NCBI RefSeq assembly: GCF_000243115.2
Contig: NZ_CP007035.1
Location: 1,612,001-1,676,000, forward strand
Reading direction: 5' to 3'
Source: Niabella soli DSM 19437
Lineage (GTDB): Bacteria > Bacteroidota > Bacteroidia > Chitinophagales > Chitinophagaceae
DNA: 64,000 nt
Of the stretch, positions 6,693-36,367 are shown one piece after another. Under the pieces are notes generated by a model. That model saw only the letters and a program-made list of their open reading frames with translations. It did no database searches and was not told the origin of the DNA. Position 1 is the first letter of the stretch. Each line of letters starts with the position of its first letter. The position numbers and the translations under genes are program-made.

Positions 6693-6806
6693 TTTAATAG
6701 TTATCAGTTTTTAGTAATCAGTTATCAGTATTGTGTAAAATAGCTTATGTGTTGTCGTTAATTAATATTTTTTTATACCTTCAATTTCATCACCTAAAAA
6801 ACACTT
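6693..6806. repeat. Left flank of four-helix-bundle cassette: TTATCAGT words
   Basis: Directly after the ATPase start codon, at 6698-6732, lie three near-tandem copies of the word (G)TTATCAGT/AATCAGTTATCAGT. The same word returns, partly inverted (ACTGATAAC), in the right flank at 7155-7235. The rest is AT-rich and could hold promoters in either direction. Confidence 0.6.
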
Positions 6807-7154
6807 ATGCAAGACTTCACTAAATTAGTCGTGTGGCAAAGAAGCCACTTGTTCACATTAAGCATTTATCGCGTCAGCAAAAGATTTCCCAAAGAGGAAA
6901 TTATGGCGCTGACTTACCAGATGAGGAAAGCGGCTTATTCCATACCAACCAATATAGCAGAAGGCTGCGGAAGAAGAACAATTCCTCAATTTAAAAACTT
7001 CCTGGATATCGCGGCCGGTTCTGCTACAGAACTCCACTACCAGCTTATTCTATCTAAAGATCTTTTATATCTCACCCCTTTGATTGCTGATCAAATGATC
7101 AATGAAATCATCGAAATAAAAAGGATGCTTCACGGGCTCATGGGCAAGCTTTGA
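6807..7154 (+). CDS. Four-helix-bundle protein (23S rRNA intervening-sequence protein family)
   Basis: A 115-residue protein of the TIGR02436 / IVS family. Family marks seen: KLVVWQRSH at the N-terminus, FPKEE, then the core YSIPTNIAEGCGRR (about 49-62) and FLDIAAGSATELHYQL (about 67-82). The frame is intact and of usual length, with ATG at 6807. Family knowledge: proteins of this fold form barrel-like oligomers, bind nucleic acid, and include the accessory protein Avd of diversity-generating retroelements as a distant relative. The function of stand-alone copies is unsettled. No reverse transcriptase is present here. The gene lies antisense inside an ABC efflux operon and is bracketed by TTATCAGT/ACTGATAA repeats that touch both neighbours' coding ends, which suggests insertion as a unit. 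Confidence 0.9.
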   Translation: MQDFTKLVVWQRSHLFTLSIYRVSKRFPKEEIMALTYQMRKAAYSIPTNIAEGCGRRTIPQFKNFLDIAAGSATELHYQLILSKDLLYLTPLIADQMINEIIEIKRMLHGLMGKL

Positions 7155-7235
7155 GGTAACAGCTTTCAGCTTTTAGTTATCAGTCTTCAGTTATTGAACG
7201 CTAACAACTGATAACTACTCACTGATAACTGAGAA
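7155..7235. repeat. Right flank of four-helix-bundle cassette: TTATCAGT/ACTGATAA inverted words
   Basis: Begins right after the TGA at 7152-7154. The first half (7156-7195) carries CAGCTTTCAGCTTTTAGTTA, then TCAGTCTTCAGTTATTG. The second half (7203-7235) carries the inverse words AACAACTGATAACTAC and TCACTGATAACTGAG. The array ends at the stop codon of the adaptor gene. The halves can pair, so the transcript could fold here, but no U-tract terminator is visible. Confidence 0.65.
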
Positions 7236-8489
7236 CTACTTCTTCAACACCAGCTCCTGCATATCCCCGTAATTTTCATAGCTGCTGGTTACCACTTTAT
7301 CGCCGGGTTTCAGGCCCTTCAGCACTTCAAAGTAATCAGGATTCTGGCGTCCCAGCAGCACTTCAGCCTTATAAGCTGTTTTACCGTCTTCACTAACCTT
7401 AAATACCCAGTTGCCGCCTGTTTGCTGAAAAAAGCCGCCACGGGCCAGCAATACCGCCGTTGTTTCATCACTTAAGGCCAGGCTGATCTGCAGCGTTTGT
7501 CCGCGACGGATATCTTTTGGCACAGCTCCTGTAAATTCCATGTCCACCTGGAAGCGCCCGTTTGTTACCTGGGTATACACTTTTTTCACCCGCAGTTGGT
7601 AGGTCTTTGTTCCGATCGTTGCATCACCCGTCAGTCCGTTAAATACGCGGGAGATATAGTGTTCATCAATATCCACCCGAACTTTATACCCCGTCAGCAC
7701 ATCGATCTGCCCCAGTCGCTCGCCTTTATTTTTTGACTGTCCGATCTCTGCATCCAGGGAGGTCAGTTGCCCGTCTACCGGCGCACGAAGGATCAGGTCG
7801 CCTACTTTGCGGCTATATAAATTCAATGCTTTCTGGGAGTTGCTAAACGACTGGCTTGCCTGTTTGGTTTGTATTTTATTAGACTGCTGATCTTGCTCAG
7901 TAATCTTTTCCGCCAGGTCCCTTTTCTTTAATTTATAATTATAATCAATCTCCGACTTCCGGAATTCCTGCTCTCCAATGGCTTTATTTTCGTACAGGTA
8001 TTTGTTGAGGTTATACAAACGTTCTGCTTCCTTCAATTGACTTTCGGCATCGGTCATCTGGTTCAGGTTGTTTACCGTATTCTGCTGAGCCGTGGTTTTT
8101 GCTAATTGCACCTGTGCCAATGTAGTGTAAACAGAAGATTGCTGGCCAATCAGGTTCAGCTCCAGGTCGGTATTGCTCAGGCGCAGAATAGGTTCGCCTT
8201 TTTTCATCATAGCACCATCCTCCACATATTTTTCTTCCACCCGCCCGCCTTCCATTGCATCCAGGTAAATCGTACTGATGGGCAGCACCACCCCATTTAC
8301 CGGGATATATTCTTTAAAGGGCGCCTTCTTTACTTCGCTGATCGTAATCCGCTCTGTATCCACATTCAGTTTGCTTTTTCCGCCTGCCAATACAATACTG
8401 GAAACAATTAATGATACCAACGCAGTAACACCTGCAATGGTCCATATCCTTTTTTTATTCCAAAACTTCTTTTCAATTGCTCTGTCCAC
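7236..8489 (-). CDS. HlyD-family periplasmic adaptor of ABC efflux system
   Basis: A 417-residue membrane-fusion protein. It has a single N-terminal membrane anchor (about residues 16-36), a lipoyl/barrel half (about 60-100), a long coiled-coil hairpin (about 110-215, rich in Gln, Lys and Glu), the returning lipoyl half (RAPVDGQLTSLDAEIG, about 233-248) and a beta-barrel/membrane-proximal end. It should connect the inner-membrane permeases to an outer-membrane channel, which is not encoded here. The start is GTG at 8489. It is the first gene of the exporter operon, preceded by a long regulatory region shared with the divergent NtrC-type regulator (8908). The four-helix-bundle gene now separates it from the ATPase. 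Confidence 0.92.
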   Translation of the reverse strand: MDRAIEKKFWNKKRIWTIAGVTALVSLIVSSIVLAGGKSKLNVDTERITISEVKKAPFKEYIPVNGVVLPISTIYLDAMEGGRVEEKYVEDGAMMKKGEPILRLSNTDLELNLIGQQSSVYTTLAQVQLAKTTAQQNTVNNLNQMTDAESQLKEAERLYNLNKYLYENKAIGEQEFRKSEIDYNYKLKKRDLAEKITEQDQQSNKIQTKQASQSFSNSQKALNLYSRKVGDLILRAPVDGQLTSLDAEIGQSKNKGERLGQIDVLTGYKVRVDIDEHYISRVFNGLTGDATIGTKTYQLRVKKVYTQVTNGRFQVDMEFTGAVPKDIRRGQTLQISLALSDETTAVLLARGGFFQQTGGNWVFKVSEDGKTAYKAEVLLGRQNPDYFEVLKGLKPGDKVVTSSYENYGDMQELVLKK

Positions 8490-8609
8490 GTTTAACTTTT
8501 TTTATTTTAATACCGGCTGTCTGCATATGGCACCAGCCTTGGCGCCTGTCCCGCAGAAGCGGGATCGCAATCACTTCAGCGCCTGTGCTAATGGCATCAA
8601 TAATAATAC

Positions 8610-8624
8610 TCAAGAATATGCCAA
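8610..8624 (-). promoter_or_regulatory. Weak sigma-54-like promoter for the exporter operon
   Basis: On the minus strand, TTGGCAT is followed four bases later by TTGA, resembling the -24/-12 pattern (TGGCAC, five bases, TTGC). The gap is one base short and the -12 element is imperfect, so the call is tentative. Position supports it: about 120 bases before the GTG of the adaptor gene and 55-105 bases downstream, in the direction of transcription, of the repeated sites at 8678-8714, as expected for activation by an NtrC-type regulator. Confidence 0.25.
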
Positions 8625-8677
8625 TGTCATAAAATATTATAGATCAATTTATTATAATTATAATTTCCTGTTTTCCC

Positions 8678-8714
8678 GTCCGCTATCGCACAAAAACCGT
8701 CCGCTTTCGATACA
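8678..8714. promoter_or_regulatory. Paired direct repeats, possible binding sites for the NtrC-type regulator
   Basis: GTCCGCTATCGCACA (8678-8692) and GTCCGCTTTCGATACA (8699-8714) are direct repeats whose starts are 21 bases apart, two helical turns. A third copy, GTCCGTTTTTGATACA, lies at 8828-8843. They lie between the exporter operon and the divergent regulator gene. The 21-base phasing is typical for dimer sites of enhancer-binding proteins. That the regulator at 8908-10260 binds here is inference from position. Confidence 0.45.
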
Positions 8715-8734
8715 GCACGGATGCTGGTTTCCGG

Positions 8735-8803
8735 ATCAAGCATCTATCATCAAGCGTTCAGCGTTACACATTAAGCATTACGCATTAAGCGTTAAACATC
8801 CCC
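8735..8803. repeat. GCGTTA / CATTAAG word repeats
   Basis: A run of short words about ten bases apart: CAAGCGTTCAGCGTTACACA, TTAAGCATTACGC, ATTAAGCGTTAAACATC. It resembles the AACGC/GCGTT arrays at 29839-29950 and 38178-38262. No coding potential. Confidence 0.5.
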
Positions 8804-8867
8804 ATTATTGAAAAGCGAACACCTGCTGTCCGTTTTTGATACACTTTCAAAAAAATAAACCCGATAA

Positions 8868-8898
8868 TTTGTTATCCGATTTTCTCTGCGCATTTTTG
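8868..8898 (+). promoter_or_regulatory. Bacteroidota-type promoter of the regulator-kinase pair
   Basis: TTTG at 8868-8871, a 19-base gap, then CATTTTTG at 8891-8898, which matches TAnnTTTG in all but the first base. Transcription would start a few bases before the ATG at 8908, giving a very short leader. The third copy of the possible regulator site (8828-8843) lies just upstream, which would fit autoregulation. Confidence 0.5.
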
Positions 8899-8907
8899 CC
8901 ATCAGAT

Positions 8908-10260
8908 ATGCTTTTAAAAGATGCCACCATATTAATTGTGGACGATGATACGGATGTATTAACTGCCGCGCGGCTGTTGTTAAAATCCCAGGCTAAAGAA
9001 GTGACCACCGAAAAAAATCCTGAAAACCTCCGAAGCCTTTTTTCGAAAAAGGATTTTGATCTGGTGCTGATGGATATGAATTTCAACAGTACCATTAACA
9101 CCGGTAATGAGGGATTATACTGGTTGCGGAAAATAAGGGAGCTGGGATCCAAAGCCGCCATCATCATGATCACCGCCTATGGCGACATCGACCTTGCCGT
9201 ACGTTCCTTAAAAGAAGGCGCTTCTGATTTTATGCTGAAGCCCTGGCAGAACGACCAACTGATCCAGAACATAAAAGAGCTGTTGAAAAAACGGACGAAT
9301 AAATCCGCCGTACAACCTGCAGCTACCGCCGGGAGCGGGTTACTGGGGCAATCCGAAGCCATGCAGGACGTCTTAAAAAAGATTGAGAAAATAGCCCCCA
9401 CCGATGCAAATATTTTAGTGCTGGGCGAAAACGGCACCGGAAAAGACCTTGTGGCCCATGCCATCTACCAGCAATCCTTAAGAGCCGCCGGTCCCTTTAT
9501 AAAAACCGATGTAGGCGCCCTCACAGAAAGTCTTTTTGAAAGTGAATTGTTCGGGCATACCAAAGGGGCGTTTACCGATGCCCGGGAAGAGCGCATCGGC
9601 CGCTTTGAAGCGGCTCATGGCGGCACGCTGTTTTTGGATGAGATCGGCAATATTGCGCTGCATCAGCAGGCGCGGTTGCTGACGGTACTGCAAAACCGGC
9701 AGGTTACCAAACTGGGATCGCATCAGCCGGTGCCTATTGACATTCGCCTGGTATGCGCCACCAACCTGCCTTTGGAGGAACTGGCCAATGAAAAACGTTT
9801 TAGAAAAGACCTGATCTACCGGATCAATACCGTAGAGATCATCTTGCCTCCGCTGCGAAAAAGAACCGGCGATATTGAACTGCTGGCGCGGCATTTTGTA
9901 AAACAATATGGCGATAAATATTTTAAACCCGGCCTGGAACTGGTTAAAAAATCAATCGACAAACTGAACCTGTATCATTTCCCGGGGAACGTCCGGGAAC
10001 TGCAATATGCAATAGAGCGCGCGGTAATCATGAGCGACGGCGAAAGCATACAACCGGTAGATATTGTTTTTTCCCCTATTGAAAGCAGGGAGGCCGACAC
10101 CGCTAAAAGCCCTGAATCGATCAATCTCAATGTGCTGGAAAAAAATGCCATATTAATTGCCATTGAAAAAAATAATGGTAATATTACAAAAGCCGCTAAG
10201 GAACTGGGGCTTACACGAACCGCCCTGTATCGCCGGCTGAACAAATATGATATTGAGTAA
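8908..10260 (+). CDS. Sigma-54-dependent response regulator, NtrC family
   Basis: A 450-residue transcription activator. The receiver domain (5-125) has the acidic pocket VDDD and phospho-acceptor Asp56 (LVLMDMN). The AAA+ domain has Walker A GENGTGKD (173-180), the sigma-54 contact loop ELFGHTKGAFTDA (about 213-225, GAFT at 220-223) and Walker B TLFLDEIG (240-247). A Fis-type helix-turn-helix ends the protein (NGNITKAAKELGLTRTALYR). A longer frame can be read from TTG at 8836, but the ATG at 8908 starts the receiver domain correctly and follows a promoter directly. The stop overlaps the start of the kinase gene by 14 bases. The divergent exporter operon is the likely target. Confidence 0.95.
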   Translation: MLLKDATILIVDDDTDVLTAARLLLKSQAKEVTTEKNPENLRSLFSKKDFDLVLMDMNFNSTINTGNEGLYWLRKIRELGSKAAIIMITAYGDIDLAVRSLKEGASDFMLKPWQNDQLIQNIKELLKKRTNKSAVQPAATAGSGLLGQSEAMQDVLKKIEKIAPTDANILVLGENGTGKDLVAHAIYQQSLRAAGPFIKTDVGALTESLFESELFGHTKGAFTDAREERIGRFEAAHGGTLFLDEIGNIALHQQARLLTVLQNRQVTKLGSHQPVPIDIRLVCATNLPLEELANEKRFRKDLIYRINTVEIILPPLRKRTGDIELLARHFVKQYGDKYFKPGLELVKKSIDKLNLYHFPGNVRELQYAIERAVIMSDGESIQPVDIVFSPIESREADTAKSPESINLNVLEKNAILIAIEKNNGNITKAAKELGLTRTALYRRLNKYDIE

Positions 10261-11584
10261 AAAACGCATCGGGGTCATTGCCGAAATCTTATTCCTGCTC
10301 CTGGTAACCGCACTAATAGTTGCCTGCTTTATACAGCAGCACTGGTGGTGGGGCATAGCGGGCCTTCCCTTCTGGATCTACGCCATTGCCCGCATCATTA
10401 ACAGCACCGAAAAAACAGATAAGATCGTTCTTGAATTTGTAGAAGCCATAAAGTATAACGACTACAGTAAAAATTACAATACAGCCCAGGCTACCGGCGA
10501 TATCAAAAAATTATTAATAGGCCTAAACTCGATCACCGACCGTTTTAAAACAATTAATAAAGAGCGAAAAGCAGAGAGTATTTACCTGCAAACCATCCTG
10601 GAAACCGTTGGGATCGGTATTATCTCTTTTGATGACAATACGGGCGCCATCGATTGGATGAACGAATCATTTAAAAAAATTACGGACATTCCCTATTTCA
10701 GGAATATCGGGGCATTGGAAAAAAGAAATCCTGCTTTCCTGGACCTATTGCTGACGCTGGAGCCGGGGCAGTCGCAGGTATTTAATTTCAGGAAAGGATT
10801 GCTGGATGAAAAGTTGTTGATCACCGCCACATTTTTTACAACAAATGGCAAAACCGATAAATTAGTATCGTTGCAAAATGTAGAAGAAACGCTCGACGAA
10901 ACAGAATCCATAGCCTGGCAAAAACTGCTGAACGTGATGACGCACGAGATCATGAATTCTGTTGCGCCTATTTCCTCCCTGGCCGATACCTTAAAAAAAC
11001 AACTGGAACCGGCGGAAAACGGCGCCAATCCGCATATTGATCCCGATGACCTGCGACTGGGATTGGAAACGATCAAAAAAAGAAGCGAAGGACTGCAGCG
11101 CTTTGCCATCACCTACCGCAACCTGAATAAGATCACCAAGCCGGTGCTGAAAAAAGTATTGGTCAGTGAAATTTTCGACAACCTGCAGAACCTGATGCAA
11201 CCCACGTTGGATCAAAAAAATATTGAACTGGATGTGATCCTGAAGGATCCGTTTCTTTCTATCCAGGCCGACACCAGCCTGGTAGAGCAGGTGCTCATCA
11301 ACTTAATGACCAATGCCATTGAAGCGGTAAAAAGCAGCTCCCACCCCCGCATTGTACTGTCAGCATTGATCGACGGAGAAAAAGCCTGCGTAAAAGTTGC
11401 AGACAACGGAATGGGCATTCCTGCATCCATTGCAGAGCAAATATTTATTCCTTTTTTCAGCACCCGAAAAAATGGTAACGGCATCGGCCTGAGTCTTTGC
11501 AAACAGATCATGCTATTGCATAAAGGCAACATTCAAATGAAAAGTAAGGAAGGAGAAGGCACGGTTTTTTTGTTGCATTTTTGA
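10247..11584 (+). CDS. Sensor histidine kinase paired with the NtrC-type regulator
   Basis: A 445-residue kinase. Two close N-terminal membrane helices (about 9-28 and 34-52) leave almost no periplasmic part, so sensing is probably within the membrane or by the cytoplasmic PAS-like region (about 108-215). The dimerisation and phosphotransfer helix carries His233 in MTHEIMNSVAPI. The ATPase domain has the N box (LMTNAIEAV), the G1 box VADNGMGIP and the G2 box GNGIGLSLCK. The start ATG at 10247 overlaps the regulator gene, so the two are translationally coupled. This kinase type usually acts with NtrC-type regulators in Bacteroidota. Its signal may be envelope or membrane stress, given the adjacent ABC exporter (inference). 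Confidence 0.93.
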   Translation: MILSKKRIGVIAEILFLLLVTALIVACFIQQHWWWGIAGLPFWIYAIARIINSTEKTDKIVLEFVEAIKYNDYSKNYNTAQATGDIKKLLIGLNSITDRFKTINKERKAESIYLQTILETVGIGIISFDDNTGAIDWMNESFKKITDIPYFRNIGALEKRNPAFLDLLLTLEPGQSQVFNFRKGLLDEKLLITATFFTTNGKTDKLVSLQNVEETLDETESIAWQKLLNVMTHEIMNSVAPISSLADTLKKQLEPAENGANPHIDPDDLRLGLETIKKRSEGLQRFAITYRNLNKITKPVLKKVLVSEIFDNLQNLMQPTLDQKNIELDVILKDPFLSIQADTSLVEQVLINLMTNAIEAVKSSSHPRIVLSALIDGEKACVKVADNGMGIPASIAEQIFIPFFSTRKNGNGIGLSLCKQIMLLHKGNIQMKSKEGEGTVFLLHF

Positions 11585-11650
11585 CAGGGTTACAGGTTGC
11601 AGGTTACAAGTTTCAGGTTACTGGTTCAGGCTACAGTTTGCTGATTGTAG
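11585..11650. repeat. Left flank of second four-helix-bundle gene: CAGGTTAC words
   Basis: Starts directly after the kinase stop codon. Tandem degenerate words CAGGGTTACAGGTTGCAGG, TTACAAGTTTCAGGTTACTG and GTTCAGGCTACAG. The inverse words (CCTGAACAAGCCTGAAACC and so on) close the cassette at 12092-12132. The same family appears once more, without a gene, at 45793-45835. Confidence 0.65.
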
Positions 11651-11703
11651 ATGCTTCCTGGATTTTGTAATAAAAAAGTTAACTTGCAACTAAATGCTAA
11701 CAC

Positions 11704-12096
11704 ATGAAAAGTTATAAGGATTTAAACATCTATCAAGAAGCGCATCGCCTTGCCTTATTAGTTCACAGATTAAGTATGAAACTTCCAAAATTTGAATTGT
11801 ATGAGGAAGGAAGCCAGGTCAGAAGATCTGCAAAGGCAGTATCAACGGCTATTGTAGAAGGATATGGAAGAAAAAGATACAAAGCAGATTTTATCAGGTT
11901 TCTTGTCTAAGCACACTCAGAATGCTATGAAACAAGGGAACATCTTGATTTCCTGTTTGAAAGCCGTTCGTTTACTGATAATGAAAAATATGACCTGCCT
12001 AAAAATGAGTATGTAAAGCTAAGTAAACAGTTAAACAGATTTATTGTATGGATTGAAGACAACTGGAACAATTCCCATTCTACCGACATAGCCTGA
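11704..12096 (+). pseudogene. Four-helix-bundle protein gene interrupted by in-frame TAA
   Basis: Reads [19 protein letters not shown] and then the family core [20 protein letters not shown], then a TAA at 11908-11910 (codon 69). The same frame goes on without a break as AHSECYETREHLDFLFES and ends at TGA 12094-12096, 131 codons in all. The joined product is a normal-length TIGR02436-type protein. The stop replaces one residue, by family pattern probably aromatic, as one base change from a Tyr codon would do. The final stop codon itself lies within the right repeat flank. It is unlike the copy at 6807-7154 in sequence and belongs to another subgroup. Either a recent nonsense mutation or a sequencing error explains the break. 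Confidence 0.85.
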
Positions 12097-12132
12097 ACAA
12101 GCCTGAAACCTGAACCTTGCAACCTGCAACCG
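12092..12132. repeat. Right flank of second four-helix-bundle gene: inverted CAGGTT words
   Basis: CCTGAACAAGCCTGAAACC, then TGAACCTTGCAACCTGCAACC, the inverse of the words at 11585-11650. It overlaps the last codons of the interrupted gene and stops just before the end of the DUF4421 gene (12135). Confidence 0.65.
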
Positions 12133-12134
12133 TT

Positions 12135-13112
12135 TCACAATATCCCCAATATCTTCTTAGGCAGCGAATGGAACCGGTAGCCTGCCGTAACACTCACACC
12201 GTCGCCATACCCGTTAAGCTTTTTGATAATCAGGTTGGTTTGCTGGTATTGAACATGAGCATTAACATAGCTATACCAGTTCCGGCCACTATACCCTGCA
12301 TTGATCCATCCTTGTAAACTAAAGACCGCCTGAATGAGGTTGTGGTTATTCACTTCCTTTAGCCCTCCTGCCGATATTGTTGCCGCCGGAGATACGATCC
12401 ATTTGCCCTTGTCAATTGAAAAATTATAGTTGTAGCCCGCGCCCGCAATTAAACTCACCCATTGCGGATCGGAGGACAGTAAGGTATAGGTAAGCGAATC
12501 TTTGATCAGCGACCGGTTGGGGCTTACCCAGTTAATTCGTTGCCATTGCGGTGTTGCCGTAACAATAATGCCCCCTGCCGATCGTACCTGCTGTTCTCCA
12601 AATGTGGACCCTGCCTGGTAAGAGAATTTACCGGTATTGGTGTAATACATCAGCTTTGCGCCCGTCGTATAATAACGCATGTCCCGGAACGCATCAAAAT
12701 TTCGGGATCGTCTCCTTTTTTGCAGCAGCAGCCCGTTATAGAAATCGTAAAAGGGGTTGATGCTGATTTTCGGGCGCCGGTAAGTAAACGCAAAAGAAGT
12801 ATGTTTTAATTTAACCTTATTGTCGAGCTCCGTTCCCGGGATACCCCAGTTATATTGCAGGGCCACCCATTTATAATTTAAAAAGAAGCCGGTGTACCAG
12901 TTGGAATTAGCCGCCAGCATAAAATTGGAGGGATGTTTGGCAAAACCCTGAAAATTAAACGTAGAGGAATAATCACCCGTGTTCCATTCGATCACATTGC
13001 CTTTTTCATATCTCCGGACAAAAGCAGCGTCGCGGGTGTCCTGAGCCCGGGAGCCCAAAACGCCAGTTACCAAACTGCACACCAATAGTATCTTCAATCT
13101 AAAACGAGCCAC
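12135..13112 (-). CDS. DUF4421-like outer-membrane beta-barrel protein
   Basis: About 325 residues. A signal peptide (VARFRLKILLVCSLVTGVLG, cleaved after SRA) is followed by alternating aromatic and hydrophobic strands (for example FNFQGFAKHPSNFMLAANSN and WVALQYNWGIPGTELDN). It ends in a barrel-like strand before PKKILGIL. It resembles Bacteroidota proteins called DUF4421. I chose GTG at 13112, four bases after the TGA of the VirJ-like gene. A longer frame from 13193 would lie inside that gene and put the signal peptide in the middle. It is the last gene of an operon with MprF- and VirJ-like proteins, so it may take part in lipid or surface-charge handling at the outer membrane (inference). 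Confidence 0.75.
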   Translation of the reverse strand: MARFRLKILLVCSLVTGVLGSRAQDTRDAAFVRRYEKGNVIEWNTGDYSSTFNFQGFAKHPSNFMLAANSNWYTGFFLNYKWVALQYNWGIPGTELDNKVKLKHTSFAFTYRRPKISINPFYDFYNGLLLQKRRRSRNFDAFRDMRYYTTGAKLMYYTNTGKFSYQAGSTFGEQQVRSAGGIIVTATPQWQRINWVSPNRSLIKDSLTYTLLSSDPQWVSLIAGAGYNYNFSIDKGKWIVSPAATISAGGLKEVNNHNLIQAVFSLQGWINAGYSGRNWYSYVNAHVQYQQTNLIIKKLNGYGDGVSVTAGYRFHSLPKKILGIL

Positions 13113-13116
13113 CGGT

Positions 13117-13779: not shown

Positions 13780-13816
13780 ACCCGTTTTACATTTTACATT
13801 CCTTATTTCTTATTCC

Positions 13817-16423: not shown

Positions 16424-16435
16424 ACAGATTTTGGT

Positions 16436-17008
16436 TTATTGTTTCAGGCGGTAAACATAGCCCAATTTACCTGTAATTCCATGCGGGTTTACATCCAAAT
16501 TGTTAAAAGACAAATGAAATCCTTTCATGCCCGCTTCTGCAAAAAATCCAGACCGGGAAGACAAATAATAATTAGTTCCTATACCGGCGGCGCCATAAAA
16601 GCCCAATTCTTTTATATGATAACGCGGACCGGGGTTATCCTGAAACTCCTTATCATAACTGCCAAAAGTCACCCCCTGCTGCAAATGGATATAGGGCGTC
16701 CAACGGAGGCCTGTGCATAACTTGTAGTGTTCACTTATGTAAACCGGCACAAAATGCAGGTGGTATAAGTTCCATCCATTATCATTATGCGTGGGGGTAT
16801 GGGAATACTCAATACCTGCACCCAGCTCCCACTTTCTTCCTAACTCTTTGTTGTAAGAAGCGCTTACTCCGGAGAAATTATTTCCGTGCGTGCTACGTAA
16901 GCATTCGATATTCGTCTTAAGGGTAGTAATGGATTGCGCGTGCGCACCACTTAAACTAACAAATGCAATAATTGAATAAACAAAGGCCTTATTCCGTTTA
17001 GCGCTCAT
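16436..17008 (-). CDS. Outer-membrane beta-barrel protein of unknown function
   Basis: 190 residues. The signal peptide is MSAKRNKAFVYSIIAFVSL (cleavage near AHA-Q), and it is followed by a small barrel rich in Gly, Tyr and Phe with a final strand GITGKLGYVYRLKQ. ATG at 17008 gives the cleanest signal peptide. ATG at 17026 is also possible, but the region just upstream is an intrinsic terminator (17042-17069). It is first in the operon with the mprF-like gene (12-base gap), so joint expression is expected. I do not recognise the family. It could be a porin-like or lipid-modifying small barrel, but no catalytic signature is visible. Confidence 0.75.
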   Translation of the reverse strand: MSAKRNKAFVYSIIAFVSLSGAHAQSITTLKTNIECLRSTHGNNFSGVSASYNKELGRKWELGAGIEYSHTPTHNDNGWNLYHLHFVPVYISEHYKLCTGLRWTPYIHLQQGVTFGSYDKEFQDNPGPRYHIKELGFYGAAGIGTNYYLSSRSGFFAEAGMKGFHLSFNNLDVNPHGITGKLGYVYRLKQ

Positions 17009-17041
17009 TCCAAAAAACAATTCCATAAGCAAAAATACAGC

Positions 17042-17471: not shown

Positions 17472-17711
17472 CTATTTTTTCTTATTTTCTTTATAACGCT
17501 TATCCGGCGTGCCGTCTTTTTTTACATGCTTGTTCTCTTTATATCGCTTATCTGGTGTACCATCTTTTTTTACGTGCTCTGCATGAGTGGCAGTTACTGT
17601 TTTTGTTGTGGTTGCTTTAGCAGGTTTCGTTTGCGCAGGAGCGGCAGTTTGTGCCTGCGTAGCCAAACTAAAGCTGATGAAGGTTAATACTGCAATAAAA
17701 AGTTTTTTCAT
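17472..17711 (-). CDS. Small secreted basic protein with duplicated 16-residue motif
   Basis: 79 residues. The signal peptide is MKKLFIAVLTFISFSLATQA (cut before QTAAPA), followed by an Ala/Thr/Lys linker and then the motif HVKKDGTPDKRYKENK twice in tandem (46-61 and 62-77). The two motif copies are identical in protein but differ at eight third-codon positions, so the peptide is under selection and the duplication is not recent. Similar short KDGTPD proteins occur in other Bacteroidota, with no function known to me. The motif is very basic and polar, which would suit binding of an anionic surface polymer or nucleic acid (speculation). It has its own promoter (17750-17781) and terminator and so forms a single-gene unit. 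Confidence 0.85.
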   Translation of the reverse strand: MKKLFIAVLTFISFSLATQAQTAAPAQTKPAKATTTKTVTATHAEHVKKDGTPDKRYKENKHVKKDGTPDKRYKENKKK

Positions 17712-17836: not shown

Positions 17837-20029
17837 CTATCGGTACGTTTTATCGTAATATTCTTTCACCTCTGCCAAAACCGCATGGCTTATTTTTTGC
17901 AGTGCTGCAATATCCCTCCGGTGATCTGTTTTTTCATCATTCTTTTCCAACAGATCAAAATAAGCATAAAACGTTTCATCGAGGCCCACGACCCCCACCG
18001 TGGTTTTCATGCTGTGCACTATTTTCGAAACAGGCGCCGGGTCTCCCTCTTCAATACGGGCGGTTAATGCATCCAGTTGTTCAGGAAACAATTCAAGAAA
18101 CTGTTCAAAAACTTCTTTTTCATATTCCCTATTTCCCCGGCTGACACTGGTGAGGTACTCCAGTTTCAGGTATTGCAGGTTTTGTTGCCCGTGATGCTCC
18201 TGCTGCCCACTGTCGCCGTACAGGTTTTCATGTTGCAGTCCATGGGCGATCATTTTTTTCAACTCCGATTCGTTGATCGGTTTGGAAAGATATTCATTCA
18301 TGCCCGCCGCCATACAACGTTCTTTTTCCCCCGGAAGTGCATCAGCCGTCATGGCCACAATGGGCGTATCAATTTTTAAATCATTTCTTATCACACCTGC
18401 GGTGGAATACCCATCCGCCACCGGCATTTGAATATCCATTAAAATGAGCGCATACTTTTGGGTTTTTAAATAGGCGATCGCTTCCGCACCATTACCGGCC
18501 GTATCGAAGTCAATTGCCCAGTTCCTGAACAACTGTTGCAGCAACAACTGGTTCAGCTCATTGTCTTCCACGATCAGTATTTTCCTGCCCTGTGCATTTA
18601 TGAATCCGGGAGCCTCTTCGGGGCCATAGTCCACAATTGTATCAGCTTCCGCTATTTGAAAAGGAATTTCTATTATAAAAGAAGAGCCCCAGCCCTTTTT
18701 GCTGTGCACTTCTATCGTCCCGTTCATCAAATGCACCAGGTCTTTAACAATAGAAAGGCCCAGCCCCGTTCCGCCATAGCGCCTTGCGATCCCTTCCTCA
18801 CTTTGCTGAAACCGTTCAAAGATGGCCGCTTCCTCCGGCTCCGTCATCCCAATCCCGGTATCGATCACCTGGAATTTCAGCGTTATGGCATCCCCGGTCT
18901 TTTTCCTGCTGGTAACAATAACCTGTATGGACCCTTTGTCGGTGAATTTAATTGCATTGCCCACCAGGTTTACGATCATCTGCGTAACGCGCACTTCGTC
19001 CCCCAGCAGGAACTGCGGCACCCCCTCATCAATAGTAACAATAAATTCGAGCCCTTTTTCAATACACTTCTGATTATAGATATTCCGGATATCAGAAAAG
19101 GTGTGCCGGATTTCAAAAGGGGCATGTTCCACCACCATCATACCTGCCTCAATTTTTGAAATATCCAGAATATTATTTACGATTTGCAACAGGTTCTCCC
19201 CGGCTTTATGTATGGACGTGGTATAGTTCCCTGCCTGCGAAGACAGTTCGGGCTCTTGTTTTAACAAGCCTGTAAATCCAAGTATTGCATTTAAGGGAGT
19301 GCGAATTTCATGGCTCATATTCGCCAGAAAATTTTCTTTCACCCGGGCGGACTGACGGGCTTTAAGCTCCGATATATTTAACCGGTGGATGAGCCGCTGC
19401 TGTTCGATTATTTTGTAGGAGATATACCCAAAAGCGATCAGGGAGGTAACCACCGCCACAATGGCCAGGATCGTACCAAAGGTTTTGGCCTGCCTGCCGC
19501 TATTATCTGCGCTGCGGATCAGTTCGGTAACGTTTACCTGGTATCGTTCATCAATTTGATTGGAAAGCCAGCGGATGGAATCGCTGAGCAATTGCCCCGC
19601 CTGGGTATTGATCAATTTTTCAGCGGAATCTTTACCATCGCCCGCAAAAGTGCGCAGCACTTCGGTGTTCATATTTACCTTCCTGCTCACCAACTGACGC
19701 AACTCCTGGATGCTGGCGCCGATCGTTTGGTTGGTTTCAAATGAATCCAGCAATTGAAACGAGTTATCGATCCGTTTGATCTGTTGTTGAAAGCGCCCGT
19801 CCTGCAGATCCTCCCCCCGGATTACAATACTCTTCGCCTCTGCTTCCAACTGAGCTACATTTTTTTGTACCTGCTGCAACTCGGATTTGACCTTTAAAAC
19901 GCTCATCAGGTCTTCATTGCCATTGATCAGCTCATTGGTGCTTCTGTTAGAATTAAATTGCAGGAAGACAATTGCAGCAATTGCCGTTATAAAACTAGCT
20001 ACAAGAATATAACGAAAGGACGACTTCAT
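17837..20029 (-). CDS. Hybrid sensor histidine kinase with receiver and Hpt domains
   Basis: 730 residues. TM1 (7-24) and TM2 (184-205) enclose a helical sensor of CHASE3 type (about 28-180). The HisKA domain has His240 in NMSHEIRTPLNAILG. The HATPase domain has N box NLVGNAIKF (354-362), G1 box VIDTGIGM and G2 box GGTGLGLSIV. The receiver domain (about 483-600) has phospho-acceptor Asp532 in LILMDIQMP. The C-terminal Hpt domain has His672 in SKIVHSMKTTVG. The phosphoryl path is thus His-Asp-His within one protein, with an outside receiver as the end point. The LytTR regulator gene next upstream on the same strand (20408-21106) is the obvious candidate, though this pairing is inference. Confidence 0.95.
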   Translation of the reverse strand: MKSSFRYILVASFITAIAAIVFLQFNSNRSTNELINGNEDLMSVLKVKSELQQVQKNVAQLEAEAKSIVIRGEDLQDGRFQQQIKRIDNSFQLLDSFETNQTIGASIQELRQLVSRKVNMNTEVLRTFAGDGKDSAEKLINTQAGQLLSDSIRWLSNQIDERYQVNVTELIRSADNSGRQAKTFGTILAIVAVVTSLIAFGYISYKIIEQQRLIHRLNISELKARQSARVKENFLANMSHEIRTPLNAILGFTGLLKQEPELSSQAGNYTTSIHKAGENLLQIVNNILDISKIEAGMMVVEHAPFEIRHTFSDIRNIYNQKCIEKGLEFIVTIDEGVPQFLLGDEVRVTQMIVNLVGNAIKFTDKGSIQVIVTSRKKTGDAITLKFQVIDTGIGMTEPEEAAIFERFQQSEEGIARRYGGTGLGLSIVKDLVHLMNGTIEVHSKKGWGSSFIIEIPFQIAEADTIVDYGPEEAPGFINAQGRKILIVEDNELNQLLLQQLFRNWAIDFDTAGNGAEAIAYLKTQKYALILMDIQMPVADGYSTAGVIRNDLKIDTPIVAMTADALPGEKERCMAAGMNEYLSKPINESELKKMIAHGLQHENLYGDSGQQEHHGQQNLQYLKLEYLTSVSRGNREYEKEVFEQFLELFPEQLDALTARIEEGDPAPVSKIVHSMKTTVGVVGLDETFYAYFDLLEKNDEKTDHRRDIAALQKISHAVLAEVKEYYDKTYR

Positions 20030-26800: not shown

Positions 26801-26839
26801 ATGTCTGTTGTATCTTAACTATTAAAAATAGGTTTGCGC

Positions 26840-27468: not shown

Positions 27469-27525
27469 AAATAGAATATTTTACTTTTGGCAGGAGCGAA
27501 AATAAAACAGCCGGGTAATCTTTTA

Positions 27526-28632: not shown

Positions 28633-28674
28633 GAATTATTATCCTTCAAAAATAACCGAAAAAACGGTTATTCC

Positions 28675-29814: not shown

Positions 29815-29838
29815 AACCGGACGGCAAAAGTACTGGAA

Positions 29839-29950
29839 AATGCTGAACGCAAGATGCTGAATGCTCTTAGTCGTTACCAGCTAACGCTCTGCCTTCTGCG
29901 TTGTGCATTCCGCGTTCGGCGTTTTGCATTGCGCGTTTAGCGTTTAGCAT
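29839..29950. repeat. GCGTTTAGCGTTT / AACGC word repeats, inverted halves
   Basis: The left half has TGCTGAACGCAAGATGCTGA and ATGCTC. The right half has GCGTTCGGCGTTTTGC and GCGCGTTTAGCGTTTAGC, the inverse words. They lie between the divergent tgt and glycosyltransferase genes. The right end forms the upstream part of the promoter at 29959. Same word class as 8735-8803 and 38178-38262. Confidence 0.55.
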
Positions 29951-29958
29951 AATCCTCC

Positions 29959-29966
29959 TATATTTG
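29959..29966 (+). promoter_or_regulatory. -7 box of the glycosyltransferase gene
   Basis: TATATTTG, a perfect TAnnTTTG, ends three bases before the ATG at 29970. A weak -33 element, TTTA, lies 19 bases upstream inside the word repeat. The transcript would start at or next to the ATG, hence be leaderless or almost so. Confidence 0.5.
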
Positions 29967-29969
29967 CGC

Positions 29970-31091: not shown

Positions 31092-31151
31092 CCGCCCTGG
31101 TGTTGCGCTAAGCATTATTTCTTCGTATTACTTGTTACAAACCTGTAAATC

Positions 31152-32393: not shown

Positions 32394-32420
32394 TATTAAC
32401 CCGATACCAACACCACTAGT

Positions 32421-32455
32421 TACCCTGCCCATTTTTTGGTGCAGGGTATTTTTTT
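32421..32455 (+). terminator. Intrinsic terminator of the serpin gene
   Basis: Stem TACCCTGC/GCAGGGTA (8 base pairs, 32421-32428 with 32441-32448), 12-base loop, then seven T. It lies 28 bases past the serpin stop codon. Confidence 0.8.
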
Positions 32456-32601
32456 CAGTGGTCACAACTCCCTCACTTGATCCTTTAATAATTTTAGCAG
32501 CGCATCAAATTCTTTGGACAAATAGCCTGTTGACAGGTTTTTCATCCTGCCGTGCAAAATTGTATATTCGCAGCTCCTATTGGTTTAATATTAAATAATA
32601 A

Positions 32602-35028
32602 ATGACAATATCCTATAAGTGGCTGAGTGAATACCTGCCGGAACCCGTTAACATTAACAGATTAAGCGTAATACTGACCTCCATTGGCCTTGAAGTAGAG
32701 GCCCTGCACGACTATGAAGAAATAAAAGGCGGCCTCAAAGGGCTGGTTATTGGTGAAGTGCTGGAAACGCAGCCACACCCGAACGCGGACAAATTAAAGC
32801 TTACCAGGGTAAACATTGGCGGCGATGCGCCCCTGAACATTGTTTGCGGCGCGCCTAATGTTGCCGCCGGTCAAAAAGTAGTGGTAGCACCGGTGGGGGC
32901 TACCATTTACCCCACCAACGGCGACCCGCTGACGATGAAGCTGGCAAAAATACGGGGCGAAGAAAGCCAGGGAATGATCTGCGCGGAGGACGAGATCGGC
33001 CTGGGCACATCGCATGCGGGGATCATGATATTGCCTGCGGAGGTAAAACCCGGCACCCCGGCGGCAGAATATTTTCAGAACTATTCAGATACGATCATAG
33101 AAATCGGTCTTACCCCCAACCGGATGGACGCCATGAGCCATTGGGGCGTGGCCCGCGATGTTTGCGCGTACCTGAGCCATCATGATAAAAAGACAGTAGC
33201 GCCCCGGCTGCCGGTTACCAATAACCTTACTATTCCAAAAGGGAAAGCCCCTTTGACGGTTTCCATTGAAAACGACAAGGCCTGTCCCCGGTATAGCGGC
33301 ATTTGTATTGAAGCGATTCGCATCGCCCCCTCCCCTAAATGGTTGCAGCACAAACTAAAAGCTATTGGACTGAAACCCATAAGCAATATAGTAGATATCA
33401 CCAATTTTATCCAACATGAAACCGGGCAACCGTTGCACGCGTTTGATGCGGATAAGATCCGCGGGCAACAAGTGATCGTAAAAAATCTTCCGGAGGGCAC
33501 TCCTTTTATTACCCTGGATGGGAAGGAACGCAAACTGAGCGCAGAAGACATCATGATCTGCGATGCGGAAGGCGGCATGTGCATTGGCGGTGTTTTTGGC
33601 GGACTGGAAAGTGGCGTAAGCGACAGTACGAAAAACATATTTTTGGAAAGCGCTTATTTTGATCCAACCACCATCCGTAAAACCTCTTTCCGGCATGGGC
33701 TCAGAACCGATGCCGCCACCCGTTTTGAAAAAGGTACCGATAGCTCCGCCACCGTTACTGTTCTAAAACGCGCCGCGGCGTTGATCCTTGAAATTTGCGG
33801 CGGCAAGCTCTCTTCAGACATTTATGATCTTTACCCCGATCCGCAGCCAAAAAAAGAGATCCTTCTCAAATATCATTATTTGAAGAAACTCAGCGGCAAG
33901 AACTACCACCCCGAAACGGTAAAAACCATTCTGGAATCATTGGGTTTTGAAATAGAAAAGGATGATATAGATTCCCTGCTGATCACCGTTCCCTATCATA
34001 AACCGGATGTAACCCTGCCGGCAGATGTGGTGGAAGAACTGTTGCGGATCGACGGGCTGGACAATGTGGAAATACCTACATCTATTAAAATAACACCTTC
34101 AGTTGATGAAAATATTGAAGCAGAATTAATTAAAAATAAAATATCCTCCTTTTTAGCCGGCTCCGGGCATAATGAGATCCTGACCAATTCCATAACAAAT
34201 AGTGCGTATTATGCTGAAAATGAAATGCATACCGTGGTTAAGATGAAAAATAGCCTGAGCACGGAACTCAACATCATGCGCCCCAATATGTTGGAAACAG
34301 GGTTGGAGATAGTGGTGCACAATTTGAACCGAAAGAACGATAATTTAAAATTATTTGAATTTGGTAAAACATACATTTTCAATGAAAAAGGAAAATTTGA
34401 AGAACCGGAGCATTTGTGTATTTACCTGACCGGGCAGCAGCAAACCCAGAACTGGAAACAGCCTGCAATCAAGTATGATTTTTTTGCATTAAAAGGGCTT
34501 GTGGATCAATCGCTCGCTCTCCTGGATATTACGTCACTGCGCTATGATGAATCGCAGGACACCAACCTGGGGTATGGTCTTGAGATCAGATCCGGACAGG
34601 TAACACTCGGAACTATCGGTGCCGTGGACCAGCAATTATTAAACCGTTTTGGAATTAAACAAGAGGTGTTTTTTGCAGATCTGAATTGGGATGCGTTGCG
34701 CAAACTGGCGCTCAGGAATAACACACAATTTAAACCGCTCTCCCGTTTTCCCGCCGTGCAGCGGGATATCGCCATGATCGTTCCCCGGGAGCTGCCCTAT
34801 CAATCAGTTGAAGCAGTCATTCAAAAATTAAATCTGAAAAAATTACAATCCTTACAGCTTTTCGACGTTTTTATAAGCGACAAGCTGGGGGCCGATAAAA
34901 AATCATTCGCTATTAATTTCATCTTCCAGGATGAAGAAAAAACATTGACGGATAATGAAATTGATAGCTGGATGAAAAAGGTCATGCAAAGTTTGGAGAG
35001 AGATTTGCAGGTAGAAATCAGAAAATAG
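32602..35028 (+). CDS. pheT: Phenylalanyl-tRNA synthetase beta subunit
   Basis: 808 residues, the usual length of the bacterial beta chain. The tRNA-binding EMAPII-like domain (about 40-150) has GEVLETQPHPNADKLKLTRV. The B3/B4 editing region (about 210-390) has FGGLESGVS. The B5 domain is at about 405-475, then the catalytic-like core, and the C-terminal FDX-ACB domain (about 712-805) has SRFPAVQRDIAMIVP. It joins PheS to charge tRNA-Phe, and pheS is not in the window. A small coiled-coil gene and zapA follow on the same strand with gaps of 10-20 bases. This order is conserved in Bacteroidota. Confidence 0.97.
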   Translation: MTISYKWLSEYLPEPVNINRLSVILTSIGLEVEALHDYEEIKGGLKGLVIGEVLETQPHPNADKLKLTRVNIGGDAPLNIVCGAPNVAAGQKVVVAPVGATIYPTNGDPLTMKLAKIRGEESQGMICAEDEIGLGTSHAGIMILPAEVKPGTPAAEYFQNYSDTIIEIGLTPNRMDAMSHWGVARDVCAYLSHHDKKTVAPRLPVTNNLTIPKGKAPLTVSIENDKACPRYSGICIEAIRIAPSPKWLQHKLKAIGLKPISNIVDITNFIQHETGQPLHAFDADKIRGQQVIVKNLPEGTPFITLDGKERKLSAEDIMICDAEGGMCIGGVFGGLESGVSDSTKNIFLESAYFDPTTIRKTSFRHGLRTDAATRFEKGTDSSATVTVLKRAAALILEICGGKLSSDIYDLYPDPQPKKEILLKYHYLKKLSGKNYHPETVKTILESLGFEIEKDDIDSLLITVPYHKPDVTLPADVVEELLRIDGLDNVEIPTSIKITPSVDENIEAELIKNKISSFLAGSGHNEILTNSITNSAYYAENEMHTVVKMKNSLSTELNIMRPNMLETGLEIVVHNLNRKNDNLKLFEFGKTYIFNEKGKFEEPEHLCIYLTGQQQTQNWKQPAIKYDFFALKGLVDQSLALLDITSLRYDESQDTNLGYGLEIRSGQVTLGTIGAVDQQLLNRFGIKQEVFFADLNWDALRKLALRNNTQFKPLSRFPAVQRDIAMIVPRELPYQSVEAVIQKLNLKKLQSLQLFDVFISDKLGADKKSFAINFIFQDEEKTLTDNEIDSWMKKVMQSLERDLQVEIRK

Positions 35029-35044
35029 CAATAAAAATTTGTTC

Positions 35045-35335
35045 ATGAGTCAGGTAATTGAAGAAAAGATCAAACAGATCCAGGAAAAATTGATACAGCT
35101 TTGCCGCAGGAATGCCGCCATCGAAAAAGAGAACAGCCTGTTAAAAGAAGCCCTGGAAGAGCAAAAAACAGCCGCAGCCAATGCGCAGACAAATATGGAA
35201 GCCATGCAGCAACAACTGGATATTGCCCGCTACGGCAACAGCGAAATGAATCCGACTGAGCGAAAGGCTTTTGAGAAAAGAATCAATACCTACCTGAAAG
35301 AGATTGATAAATGCATTGCGTTATTGAGTGTATAA
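35045..35335 (+). CDS. Small coiled-coil protein between pheT and zapA
   Basis: 96 residues, all helical. It has heptad-like leucines in IEEKIKQIQEKLIQLCRR, then IEKENSLLKEALEEQ, then a Gln/Ala-rich part and a second short helix (NPTERKAFEKRINTYLKEI). ATG at 35045 is used; the earlier in-frame start at 35039 is a TTG. Genes of this size and kind stand before zapA in many Bacteroidota. By size, coiled-coil nature and position it could be a ZapB-like partner of ZapA or FtsZ, but that is inference. Same operon as pheT and zapA. Confidence 0.85.
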   Translation: MSQVIEEKIKQIQEKLIQLCRRNAAIEKENSLLKEALEEQKTAAANAQTNMEAMQQQLDIARYGNSEMNPTERKAFEKRINTYLKEIDKCIALLSV

Positions 35336-35347
35336 TTAAAAAAAATT

Positions 35348-35641
35348 ATGTCCGACAACCTGATACCCGCCAATATAATGATTGCCGACAGGCATTTCCG
35401 TATAAGAGTAGAGCCTGCAGATGAAGAAACCGTCCGGCACTCCATCAAGATCATCAATGATAAAGTGATGGAGTTTAAAAAAATGTTCCCGGGAAAAGAT
35501 ATGCAGGACTATGTGTCCATGGTATTGATATGGTTTGCTACCGAGTTTAAGGCTGAAGGCGTTTCTTCTATTGACACGGAAGCCGTCATGGGTAAACTGA
35601 AGCAGTTGGAAGCCATACTCGATAGTGAGCTGGGGGAATAA
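35348..35641 (+). CDS. zapA: ZapA-like cell-division protein
   Basis: 97 residues. The N-terminal beta-hairpin globular head, IPANIMIADRHFRIRVEPADE (about 6-26), is followed by VRHSIKIINDKVMEFKKMF and a C-terminal coiled-coil helix (MGKLKQLEAILDSEL). ZapA bundles FtsZ protofilaments in the Z ring. The length and order of parts match the family. It directly follows the coiled-coil gene (12 bases). The stop is immediately followed by the word repeats at 35650-35785, where many Bacteroidota have a 6S RNA gene or rny. Neither is seen here. Confidence 0.9.
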   Translation: MSDNLIPANIMIADRHFRIRVEPADEETVRHSIKIINDKVMEFKKMFPGKDMQDYVSMVLIWFATEFKAEGVSSIDTEAVMGKLKQLEAILDSELGE

Positions 35642-35649
35642 GTATTTTT

Positions 35650-35785
35650 GCCACTAAGACACGAAGACACTAAGATTTTTACTCTTAATGCCATAGTGCC
35701 TTTGTGGTCTATTTTTTATTTTGTCACTAAGACACATGGGCACTAAGGACTTTTTACTCTTCGTGCCGTAGTGCCTTCGTGGCCT
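35650..35785. repeat. Two copies of the CACTAAGACACGAAG / CTTCGTGCC inverted word unit (right of GxxExxY gene)
   Basis: Unit one: GCCACTAAGACACGAAGACA (from 35650), then ATGCCATAGTGCCTTTGTGG (to about 35707). Unit two: TCACTAAGACACATGGGCAC (from about 35734), then TTCGTGCCGTAGTGCCTTCG (to about 35780). Each unit is an inverted repeat that could form a long hairpin. A third unit lies on the other side of the GxxExxY gene (36245-36303). Confidence 0.7.
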
Positions 35786-35802
35786 ATTTTTTGCCTGTTC
35801 AG

Positions 35803-36195
35803 CTAATTCCTGAATCTTCTTATACCCTTTTTAATCAGGGGAATGTTAAAGTTAATAAGATACCCAAGTTCCAGCCCTGTCAATTTTAAATGGCTGATAA
35901 TTTGAGCTTCCCATACAGGATTAACCAGTTCAACGGATTTTATCTCTACTACAACAAAATCGTCTACCAATAAATCTAATCGCAGACCTTCGTCAAATTG
36001 GATGCCATCGTATTCTATAGGAACGTCAACCTGCCTCCTTACCTTAAATCCCGCCTTGCGAAGCTCGTGCGCCATACATATTTCATATATTTTTCCCAAC
36101 AGGCCAGGCCCCAGTGCTTTATGTATTTTAAAAGCGGCGTTTACAATAGCACTACCGATTTGCTCCTGTTTTTCAGATAAGTCTTTGTATAGCAT
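35803..36195 (-). CDS. GxxExxY protein, PD-(D/E)XK-nuclease-like fold
   Basis: 130 residues. Family marks: IVNAAFKIHKALGPG (17-31), HELRKAGFKVRRQV (43-56), the nuclease-like pattern RLDLLVDDFVVVEIK with Asp74, Glu84 and Lys86, and HLKLTGLELGYLINFN (102-117). The name-giving motif GxxExxY reads GLLGKIY here. Glu is replaced by Gly34 (codon GGA, one transition from GAA). ATG at 36195 fits the family; longer forms read into the repeats. Function is unknown in the family, and nuclease activity is suggested only by fold. It is bracketed on both sides by CACTAAGACACGAAG word units, like homologues I recall in other phyla. Confidence 0.9.
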   Translation of the reverse strand: MLYKDLSEKQEQIGSAIVNAAFKIHKALGPGLLGKIYEICMAHELRKAGFKVRRQVDVPIEYDGIQFDEGLRLDLLVDDFVVVEIKSVELVNPVWEAQIISHLKLTGLELGYLINFNIPLIKKGIRRFRN

Positions 36196-36213
36196 ACCTA
36201 CTAAGGTTTCTAT

Positions 36214-36354
36214 TCTTCGTGCCGCGATGCCACGGTGCCTTTTTGCCATAAGACACGAAGACACTAAGGTTTTTTCTCTTCGTGCCTTAGTGCCTTCGTG
36301 GCCTCCTTTTTGCCGCCAAGCTCTTCTTTTTTGTGGCTTTGTGCCTCCGTAGTC
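36214..36354. repeat. CTTCGTGCC / CACTAAGACACGAAG word units (left of GxxExxY gene)
   Basis: It contains CTTCGTGCCGCGATGCCACG (36216-36235). A complete inverted unit from GCCATAAGACACGAAGACAC to GTGCCTTAGTGCCTTCGTGG lies at 36245-36303. A decayed end, TTGTGGCTTTGTGCCTCCG, follows (36331-36349). It borders the phosphoglucomutase gene. Confidence 0.7.
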
Positions 36355-36367
36355 TAAATTTTTCCAG

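Follow-up and report, generated by a model that had tools for sequence, protein, structure and literature searches.

Why should small accessory genes of one bacterium each stand between inverted copies of a short word that differs from gene to gene? The question is raised by three units in a 64,000-nucleotide stretch of the Niabella soli DSM 19437 genome (G000:C1:1612001-1676000, referred to here as the window), part of a host genome of 4.70 Mb in a single contig. Two of the enclosed genes, one of them broken, belong to the four-helix family PF05635 (23S_rRNA_IVP, here IVP) and the third to PF13366 (GxxExxY), and every one of the three is flanked by inverted arrays of a short word. Each unit is probably a small mobile cassette, made up of a 5' arm of near-tandem 7- or 8-base words in which G outnumbers C, one open reading frame (ORF) and an inverse arm. 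A first-pass annotation of the window had pointed out the three gene-plus-inverted-word structures, and all are present and score above chance. It had also taken the genes to be three unrelated ones; since two of the three are PF05635 members, the number of unrelated families is two.

Structure of the cassettes

The three units have the following parts, in window coordinates.

6698..6729, plus strand: cassette 1 left word arm, TTATCAG heptads (inverted partner at 7207-7238, score 20)
6807..7154, plus strand: cassette 1 IVP gene (PF05635, E 1.2e-35, 122 bits)
7160..7238, plus strand: cassette 1 right word arm, itself a hairpin of a TTATCAG-type word (from the sequence, as an inverted pair)
11585..11641, plus strand: cassette 2 left word arm, GGTTACA heptads, starting from the upstream gene's stop codon
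11704..12096, plus strand: cassette 2 IVP gene (PF05635, 88 bits; first piece E 3.4e-16)
12089..12131, plus strand: cassette 2 right word arm, overlapping the 3' end of the IVP gene
35646..35792, plus strand: cassette 3 left arrays, two hairpins of CACTAAGA / CACGAAGA octads
35803..36195, minus strand: cassette 3 GxxExxY gene (PF13366, PDDEXK_3; E 4.1e-37)
36196..36360, plus strand: cassette 3 right arrays, hairpins of CACTAAGA / CACGAAGA octads, one at 36249-36289 (end set by eye)

The IVP gene of cassette 2 is interrupted by one in-frame TAA (11908-11910), and its arms form an inverted pair (11579-11633 / 12089-12140, score 25) with a tandem repeat at 11588-11641. The open frame of cassette 3 extends beyond the gene (ORF 35803-36399). 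The whole host genome has 12 PF05635 matches, one of them below the cut-off, and four PF13366 matches; inverted word arms were seen by eye on nearly all of these 16 genes, with a different word at each. The layouts are of two kinds, with either a single arm or a full hairpin on each side.

Inverted arms are in excess over chance

Flanks were scored by comparing the 300 bases upstream of a gene with the reverse complement of the 300 bases downstream. The host-genome controls, 634 genes in all, were called in the window and in 40 stretches of 20 kb chosen at random, and include the gene at 6807. Cassettes 1, 2 and 3 score 20, 27 and 19, values reached by 5, 1 and 5 of these genes, for which the median is 10. 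A score of at least 18 was reached by 6 of the 634 (the 6807 gene among them), by 3 of the 219 controls shorter than 220 residues and by 11 of the 16 host-genome cassette genes, the remaining five of which score 12, 12, 14, 14 and 16. Inverted pairs scoring at least 18 in 864 kb of host DNA number 16 at spacings of 200-800 bases, 0 at 800-1500 and 24 at 1500-5000. Two of the high-scoring controls encode ribosomal proteins L6 and L16 and are bracketed by geneless hairpins built from a single octad. In this host ribosomal protein operon (locus L031), geneless octad or heptad hairpins are found on both sides of the two genes, at 1701-1789, 2725-3518 and 6356-7025.

The same scoring was applied to a set of 17 genomes of the window's genus. 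Of 167 PF05635 matches, the 100 higher-scoring, longer ones were sampled, and 97 were scorable, three being cut by contig ends; 33 of 100 GxxExxY matches were taken and 32 scored. Scores of at least 18 were found for 54 of the 97 IVP loci, compared with 5 of the 633 other host-genome genes, so that arms are not equally common around other genes, an outcome that the first-pass annotation had named as counting against its reading. Upstream and downstream flanks swapped between IVP loci reached this score in 44 of 970 pairs, orthologues with a common word included. For GxxExxY the figures are 16 of 32 loci and 16 of 320 swapped pairs.

Of 198 Bacteroidota genomes sampled, 157 have PF05635 matches. 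When the best-scoring match from each of 30 genomes was taken, 24 of the 30 loci scored at least 15, compared with 76 of 870 swapped pairs, and the 5' arm was richer in G in 24 of 25. Plasmid records with a PF05635 match number 26 and are mostly cyanobacterial. A wider set of 22 loci, consisting of 18 plasmid loci (20 taken, 2 near-copies dropped) and four named contigs from a single-protein search, had 15 scores of at least 15 and 12 of at least 18, with 33 and 15 among 462 swapped pairs; 10 of its 16 cyanobacterial loci scored at least 15. The framing of small genes by word arms is confirmed as real and general.

Arm anatomy and orientation

The arms are periodic in a manner that depends on the gene family. 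Over 148 IVP arms, self-identity reaches 0.56 (z 40) at a lag of 7 and peaks again at 14, 21 and 28, and the best lag of the individual arm is 7 in 78 and 8 in 31. The 42 GxxExxY arms peak at lags 8 (z 7.9) and 9 (z 4.2), and just five of them are clearly periodic individually. When the nearest arm at a non-syntenic site was sought, with 97 IVP and 32 GxxExxY loci on offer, it came from the locus's own family for 94 of 97 and 21 of 32. An AG core common to all words was tried and rejected: it is strong in the phylum set (z 9.7), and we make no claim for it because it is weaker in the genus (z 3.4) and does not rank with the leading dinucleotides of the GxxExxY words.

In 74 of 83 IVP loci scoring at least 14, G outnumbers C in the 5' arm (C outnumbers G in 5, and the two are equal in 4), as it does in 17 of 25 GxxExxY loci (the reverse in 5, equal in 3). 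This polarity is independent of gene direction, because an inverted pair looks alike on either strand. Ordinary host-genome hairpins (n=70) are without it, 35 having more G, 29 fewer and 6 equal, and among 15 word-like host-genome hairpins 9 have more and 6 fewer. As judged from the longest-open-frame neighbors, and with orthologues counted, 75 of the 97 IVP genes have co-directional neighbors and run in sense with them, 9 are antisense to such neighbors, 9 have divergent and 4 convergent neighbors; the corresponding numbers for the 32 GxxExxY genes are 17, 4, 4 and 7.

The word follows the protein subfamily

Arm similarity was compared with protein identity after pairs with homologous outer flanks had been left out. 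Among 74 genus IVP loci scoring at least 15 (2608 pairs), the one grows with the other (r 0.32, 0 of 2000 permutations), and an arm-similarity excess of at least 8 is found in 0.6% of pairs below 40% protein identity, in 33% at 60-70% (n=24) and in 82% at 70% or above (n=11). The 21 GxxExxY loci (200 pairs) give r 0.58, again with 0 of 2000 permutations, and a comparison between genera (113 loci, 74 of them from the window's genus; 3572 pairs without common flanks) gives r 0.203, 0 of 1000. Judged from these alignments, the linkage points to a single unit of inheritance and not to binding, because common descent of gene and arms suffices to produce it.

The same common descent is central to an alternative that we consider unlikely, in which the genes are accessory genes of long vertical descent and a local mutation process shapes their flanks: the near-tandem words arise by slippage, and template switching between the inverted repeats keeps one arm like the other, with no recognition and little movement. 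It would account for the linkage unaided, and it agrees with the observation that the arms of orthologous cassettes drift together. The junctions described below bear on it from both sides.

Occupied, decayed and empty sites

The junction between sufB and sufC, at which both profile matches are above the cut-off, could be compared throughout the 17 genomes. A cassette is present in six (G000, G012, G006, G003, G014 and G011, the last broken); in G010, G002, G016 and G001 the interior is deleted and both arms are kept (by eye); G013 has one remaining arm; G004, G005, G007, G008 and G009 have 54-63 bp and no arms; and G015 has 128 bp of other sequence. The G014 copy belongs to a different subfamily, with a different word and 36-43% identity to four others at this junction. 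In G010, G006, G003 and G001 (L188, L189, L191 and L192), another short element, roughly 100 bp long, was seen by eye beside the left word arm, with a core like CTTCGTTGTGTCACTCACTTG...TGCAGTACAT; it is more diverged in G003, related pieces occur in G013 and G015, and Rfam gave no match to it in L188 or L189.

The site of cassette 1, between genes for an ABC ATPase and a periplasmic adaptor, has intact or decayed cassettes in nine genomes. The copy in G003, G010 and G001 looks like a second IVP subfamily with other words; the two that were measured are 46-49% identical to the window protein, and the adjacent genes are 85-86% (ATPase) and 80% (adaptor) identical in DNA. There are gaps of 48, 50 and 103 bp in G009, G016 and G005 and a longer insert in G015, and no such locus was matched in four genomes. 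Eight genomes were searched for the cassette 2 site and two of them, G008 and G013, were read: the cassette is absent from G008, where the neighbor matches lie 17 bp apart. In G013 (L304/L312), a Y1 (PF01797) transposase gene with palindromes replaces the IVP gene at this site and the right word arm remains. The two neighbor genes of cassette 3 had no side-by-side matches outside G013. Another GxxExxY gene, L015, has nuoF on one side and a nuoG-like gene on the other (NuoG match below the cut-off); this site is occupied in 11 of the 17 genomes, empty by match spacing in four (two of them read), otherwise filled in one and not found in one.

Clean presence or absence of a gene together with both flanks, which the first-pass annotation had proposed to look for between close strains, is thus found between species of the genus, not strains. 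Empty junctions without arms, and one junction holding different subfamilies and words in genomes whose neighboring genes are far more alike, argue against slippage and inheritance as the whole explanation.

Geneless arrays and resident words

Arrays without a gene are also present in the window. Twelve, hand-chosen as the arrays of the first-pass annotation plus five tandem-repeat hits, were compared with the words of cassettes elsewhere in the genome; no strand is assigned to any of them.

621..678: word of the resident IVP cassette L010 (score 26, shuffled maximum 18)
3249..3308: L010 word (score 28, shuffled maximum 18)
5700..5742: L011 word (score 24, shuffled maximum 16)
5852..5892: L010 word (score 25, shuffled maximum 16)
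5950..6016: L010 word (score 27, shuffled maximum 17)
8735..8803: L005 word (score 29, shuffled maximum 14)
29839..29950: two-sided array, L005 word (score 24, shuffled maximum 15)
38178..38225: L005 word (score 28, shuffled maximum 13)
38226..38262: L011 word, weak (score 16, shuffled maximum 15)
42492..42605: inverted octad-like array, no resident cassette with its word found (score 13, shuffled maximum 15)
45793..45835: word of cassette 2, L008 (score 23, shuffled maximum 13)
59201..59298: inverted array, no resident cassette with its word found (score 13, shuffled maximum 16)

Ten of the 12, one of them barely, match the word of such a cassette. The array at 29839-29950, previously described as one-sided, is by eye two-sided. 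Copies were then counted in the 864 kb of host DNA with the cassettes masked. Resident IVP arms have a mean of 3.9 copies elsewhere (median 1; at least one copy for 9 of 10), and sister-genome arms resembling a resident word have 3.8 (27 of 42 with any), compared with 0.35 for unrelated foreign arms (7 of 31 with any) and 0.07-0.15 for shuffled arms. The GxxExxY means are 3.25, 1.14 and 0.07 for resident, resident-like and foreign arms (4, 7 and 14 arms). Own and foreign arms of the two families pooled differ with p 1e-6, the arms not being independent. Geneless arrays therefore mostly track resident words, and this, like the G-over-C polarity that ordinary hairpins do not have, is not expected if slippage and inheritance were all. 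A strict rule for word hairpins found 15 in the 864 kb, two of which are cassette parts; of the remaining 13, ten match the arm of a cassette, a resident one in nine cases. Because word hairpins without a gene are not uncommon, an array on one side carries little weight by itself.

In the sampled DNA, 22 geneless copies of the L010 word accompany a single gene, which exceeds what simple decay would suggest. Such a copy number would also fit a view in which the arms were the mobile part, moved in the manner of repetitive extragenic palindromic (REP) sequences by a resident Y1 transposase of the REP-associated tyrosine transposase (RAYT) kind, with the enclosed genes as passengers. The host genome has ten PF01797 matches, and a Y1 gene sits within the cassette remains of G013. 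We nevertheless regard this as very improbable: the ten matches lie outside the window units, which enclose PF05635 or PF13366 genes and no Y1 transposase; the palindromes beside the host RAYT genes are of another, GC-rich type and are not heptad arrays (by eye); and passengers would not be expected to track the words.

Two further repeats were observed. A 48-base unit occurs as two tandem copies at window positions 17481-17578, between ORFs 16436-17032 and 17837-20029. The host genome also contains a roughly 270-bp repeat that is bounded by terminal inverted repeats and has a core like CATGCGCGTCAAGATAAG (L029 7998-8266, L041 13794-14070 and L042 17523-17800).

Mobility weighed against inheritance

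Several observations count against our reading of the units as mobile cassettes. By a grouping on both flanks, a rule that may merge neighboring cassettes, 75 of the 97 IVP loci are accounted for by 19 sites common to at least two genomes and the remaining 22 are single; most copies therefore look inherited in the genus, not freshly moved, as the slippage and inheritance alternative would have it. Fourteen of the 97 score below 14. Geneless host copies exist for 7 of the 31 foreign IVP words, with three each for L080 and L169. Co-inheritance alone would yield the word-protein correlation, and the cross-genus effect is small because just ten pairs have proteins at least 60% alike. Neither a target duplication nor an excision product was observed, the junctions read being too diverged to reveal a duplication. 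The first-pass annotation had suggested that the proteins act on, or spread together with, their words. The word-protein linkage, four junctions and the resident-word arrays favor spreading together; action on the words does not follow, since common descent gives the same correlation.

Relation to rRNA intervening sequences

According to Rfam, an IVP gene lies within a large-subunit (23S) ribosomal RNA (rRNA) gene in Azospirillum lipoferum 4B (L334) and in Endozoicomonas sp. ONNA2 (L338), and both are flanked by heptad arms of the GACAG type. The intervening sequence (IVS) of Coxiella, as described in PMC4990558, has tandem GACAGAT heptamers ahead of its S23 ORF and is excised by RNase III. 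These 23S-internal genes with heptad arms, together with the Coxiella heptamers, tie the intergenic cassettes to rRNA IVS, and from their sequences the window units look like intergenic relatives of them. Two of the window units have an S23/IVP-family ORF (the third has PF13366) between complementary terminal arms, as rRNA IVS do. They differ in being intergenic, many per genome and each with its own word, and they are known here from DNA alone. The GxxExxY genes share the IVS-like layout, with 8- to 9-base words. Rfam gave one tRNA in total for the window, L188, L189 and L031, and no rRNA in the window. A layout common to rRNA IVS means that the class is not wholly unknown, a link that the first-pass annotation had missed.

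The relationship also suggests an explanation at the RNA level, which we find rather unlikely: the arms would pair, RNase III would excise the cassette from operon mRNA and so make the insertion harmless, and pairing would be selected with the protein incidental. The sense orientation of 75 of the 97 IVP genes fits this, as do the predicted fold of the cassette 2 transcript (11585-12134), in which the arms are paired (z -3.6), the presence of arms inside 23S rRNA, and the excision published for the heptamer-bearing Coxiella IVS. However, IVP arm mismatches show no sense G.U excess, with 113 sense-type and 116 antisense-type wobbles, and the GxxExxY counts are 43 and 34 (p 0.36), so that the test lends no support to selection on RNA pairing. 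Moreover, 574 of 2685 aligned IVP arm positions differ, and 9 of the 97 IVP genes are antisense in co-directional operons. The protein also appears to be constrained, which an incidental product would not be: in five of six scorable pairs the ratio of nonsynonymous to synonymous change (dN/dS) is 0.06-0.13. Eleven pairs were tried. Of the five low-ratio pairs, two have a gene in common and one contains the broken cassette 2; the sixth scorable pair has a ratio of 0.53 with very few changes, and the remaining five of the 11 were saturated.

Comparison with known systems

The TAACTGA repeats of Beggiatoaceae, cyanobacteria and Bacteroidetes (PMC4679880) are likewise intergenic heptads, and the right arm of cassette 1 contains TAACTGA. 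A repeat-binding protein was suggested there as a possible mobile element; unlike the window units, the repeats are not associated with a gene cassette in the 11 passages on "inverted", "mobile" and related terms, and the term "s23" does not occur in the paper. IVP genes of Nostoc, Anabaena and Pseudanabaena lie between inverted heptad arrays. By layout alone these resemble STRR, the heptad repeats of cyanobacteria. REP/RAYT units (REPtrons) are similar in having intergenic palindromes about a small gene and geneless derivatives. They differ in that RAYT is a Y1 transposase, whereas cassette words are near-tandem heptads private to each cassette. As regards insertion sequences and miniature inverted-repeat transposable elements, the enclosed window genes matched no transposase family in a profile search, and the junctions are too diverged for a target duplication to be visible.

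Avd of diversity-generating retroelements has a related fold, according to PMC10053308, but the bAvd profile scores 27.8 bits on the window protein, below its cut-off of 40. IVP genes in CRISPR-cas loci are described in PMC3936711, of which the passages concerned make no mention of word arms. We likewise observed IVP genes in CRISPR operons (L331, L337 and L344), flanked by cas6 and cas4 in Pseudanabaena and Anabaena 90 and between cas10/cmr2 and cmr3 in Picosynechococcus, and one between two tRNA genes on a Cloacimonadota contig (L341 1344-2054). Among the papers listed in searches of the open-licence literature, none dealt with word arms of S23/IVP or GxxExxY genes that lie outside rRNA, which is weak evidence of novelty; the nearest are PMC4679880, PMC4990558, PMC3936711, PMC10053308 and PMC11270868.

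Proposed mechanism and significance

If the units are mobile cassettes, they would settle rarely, behind stop codons at operon junctions, and the IVP gene, mostly in sense between co-directional neighbors, would be expressed from the host transcript. To our knowledge, neither the IVP nor the GxxExxY family is a known transposase. The IVP protein may act as a ring of five four-helix bundles that binds its own word array; such binding would hold both arms to one word, and the word would drift alongside the protein. Geneless arrays would be deletion derivatives, or copies spread in trans. A relative of IVP has a solved structure with five chains (2GSC), and the title of its reference speaks of an assembly of five four-helix bundles.

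More broadly, it is possible, and we propose it tentatively, that these units belong to a widespread class of selfish elements, each encoding a small protein that reads its own private heptad code, with word and protein diversifying in lockstep. Two unrelated families, IVP and GxxExxY, would have adopted this layout, rRNA IVS would be those members that inserted into rRNA, and the heptad arrays found between genes in Bacteroidota and cyanobacteria would be geneless derivatives. If this is true, one explanation would serve for rRNA IVS, for the heptad arrays of cyanobacteria, Beggiatoaceae and Bacteroidota, and for two common gene families, and with scores of natural protein-word pairs the nucleic-acid recognition code of the four-helix ring would become readable from genomes.

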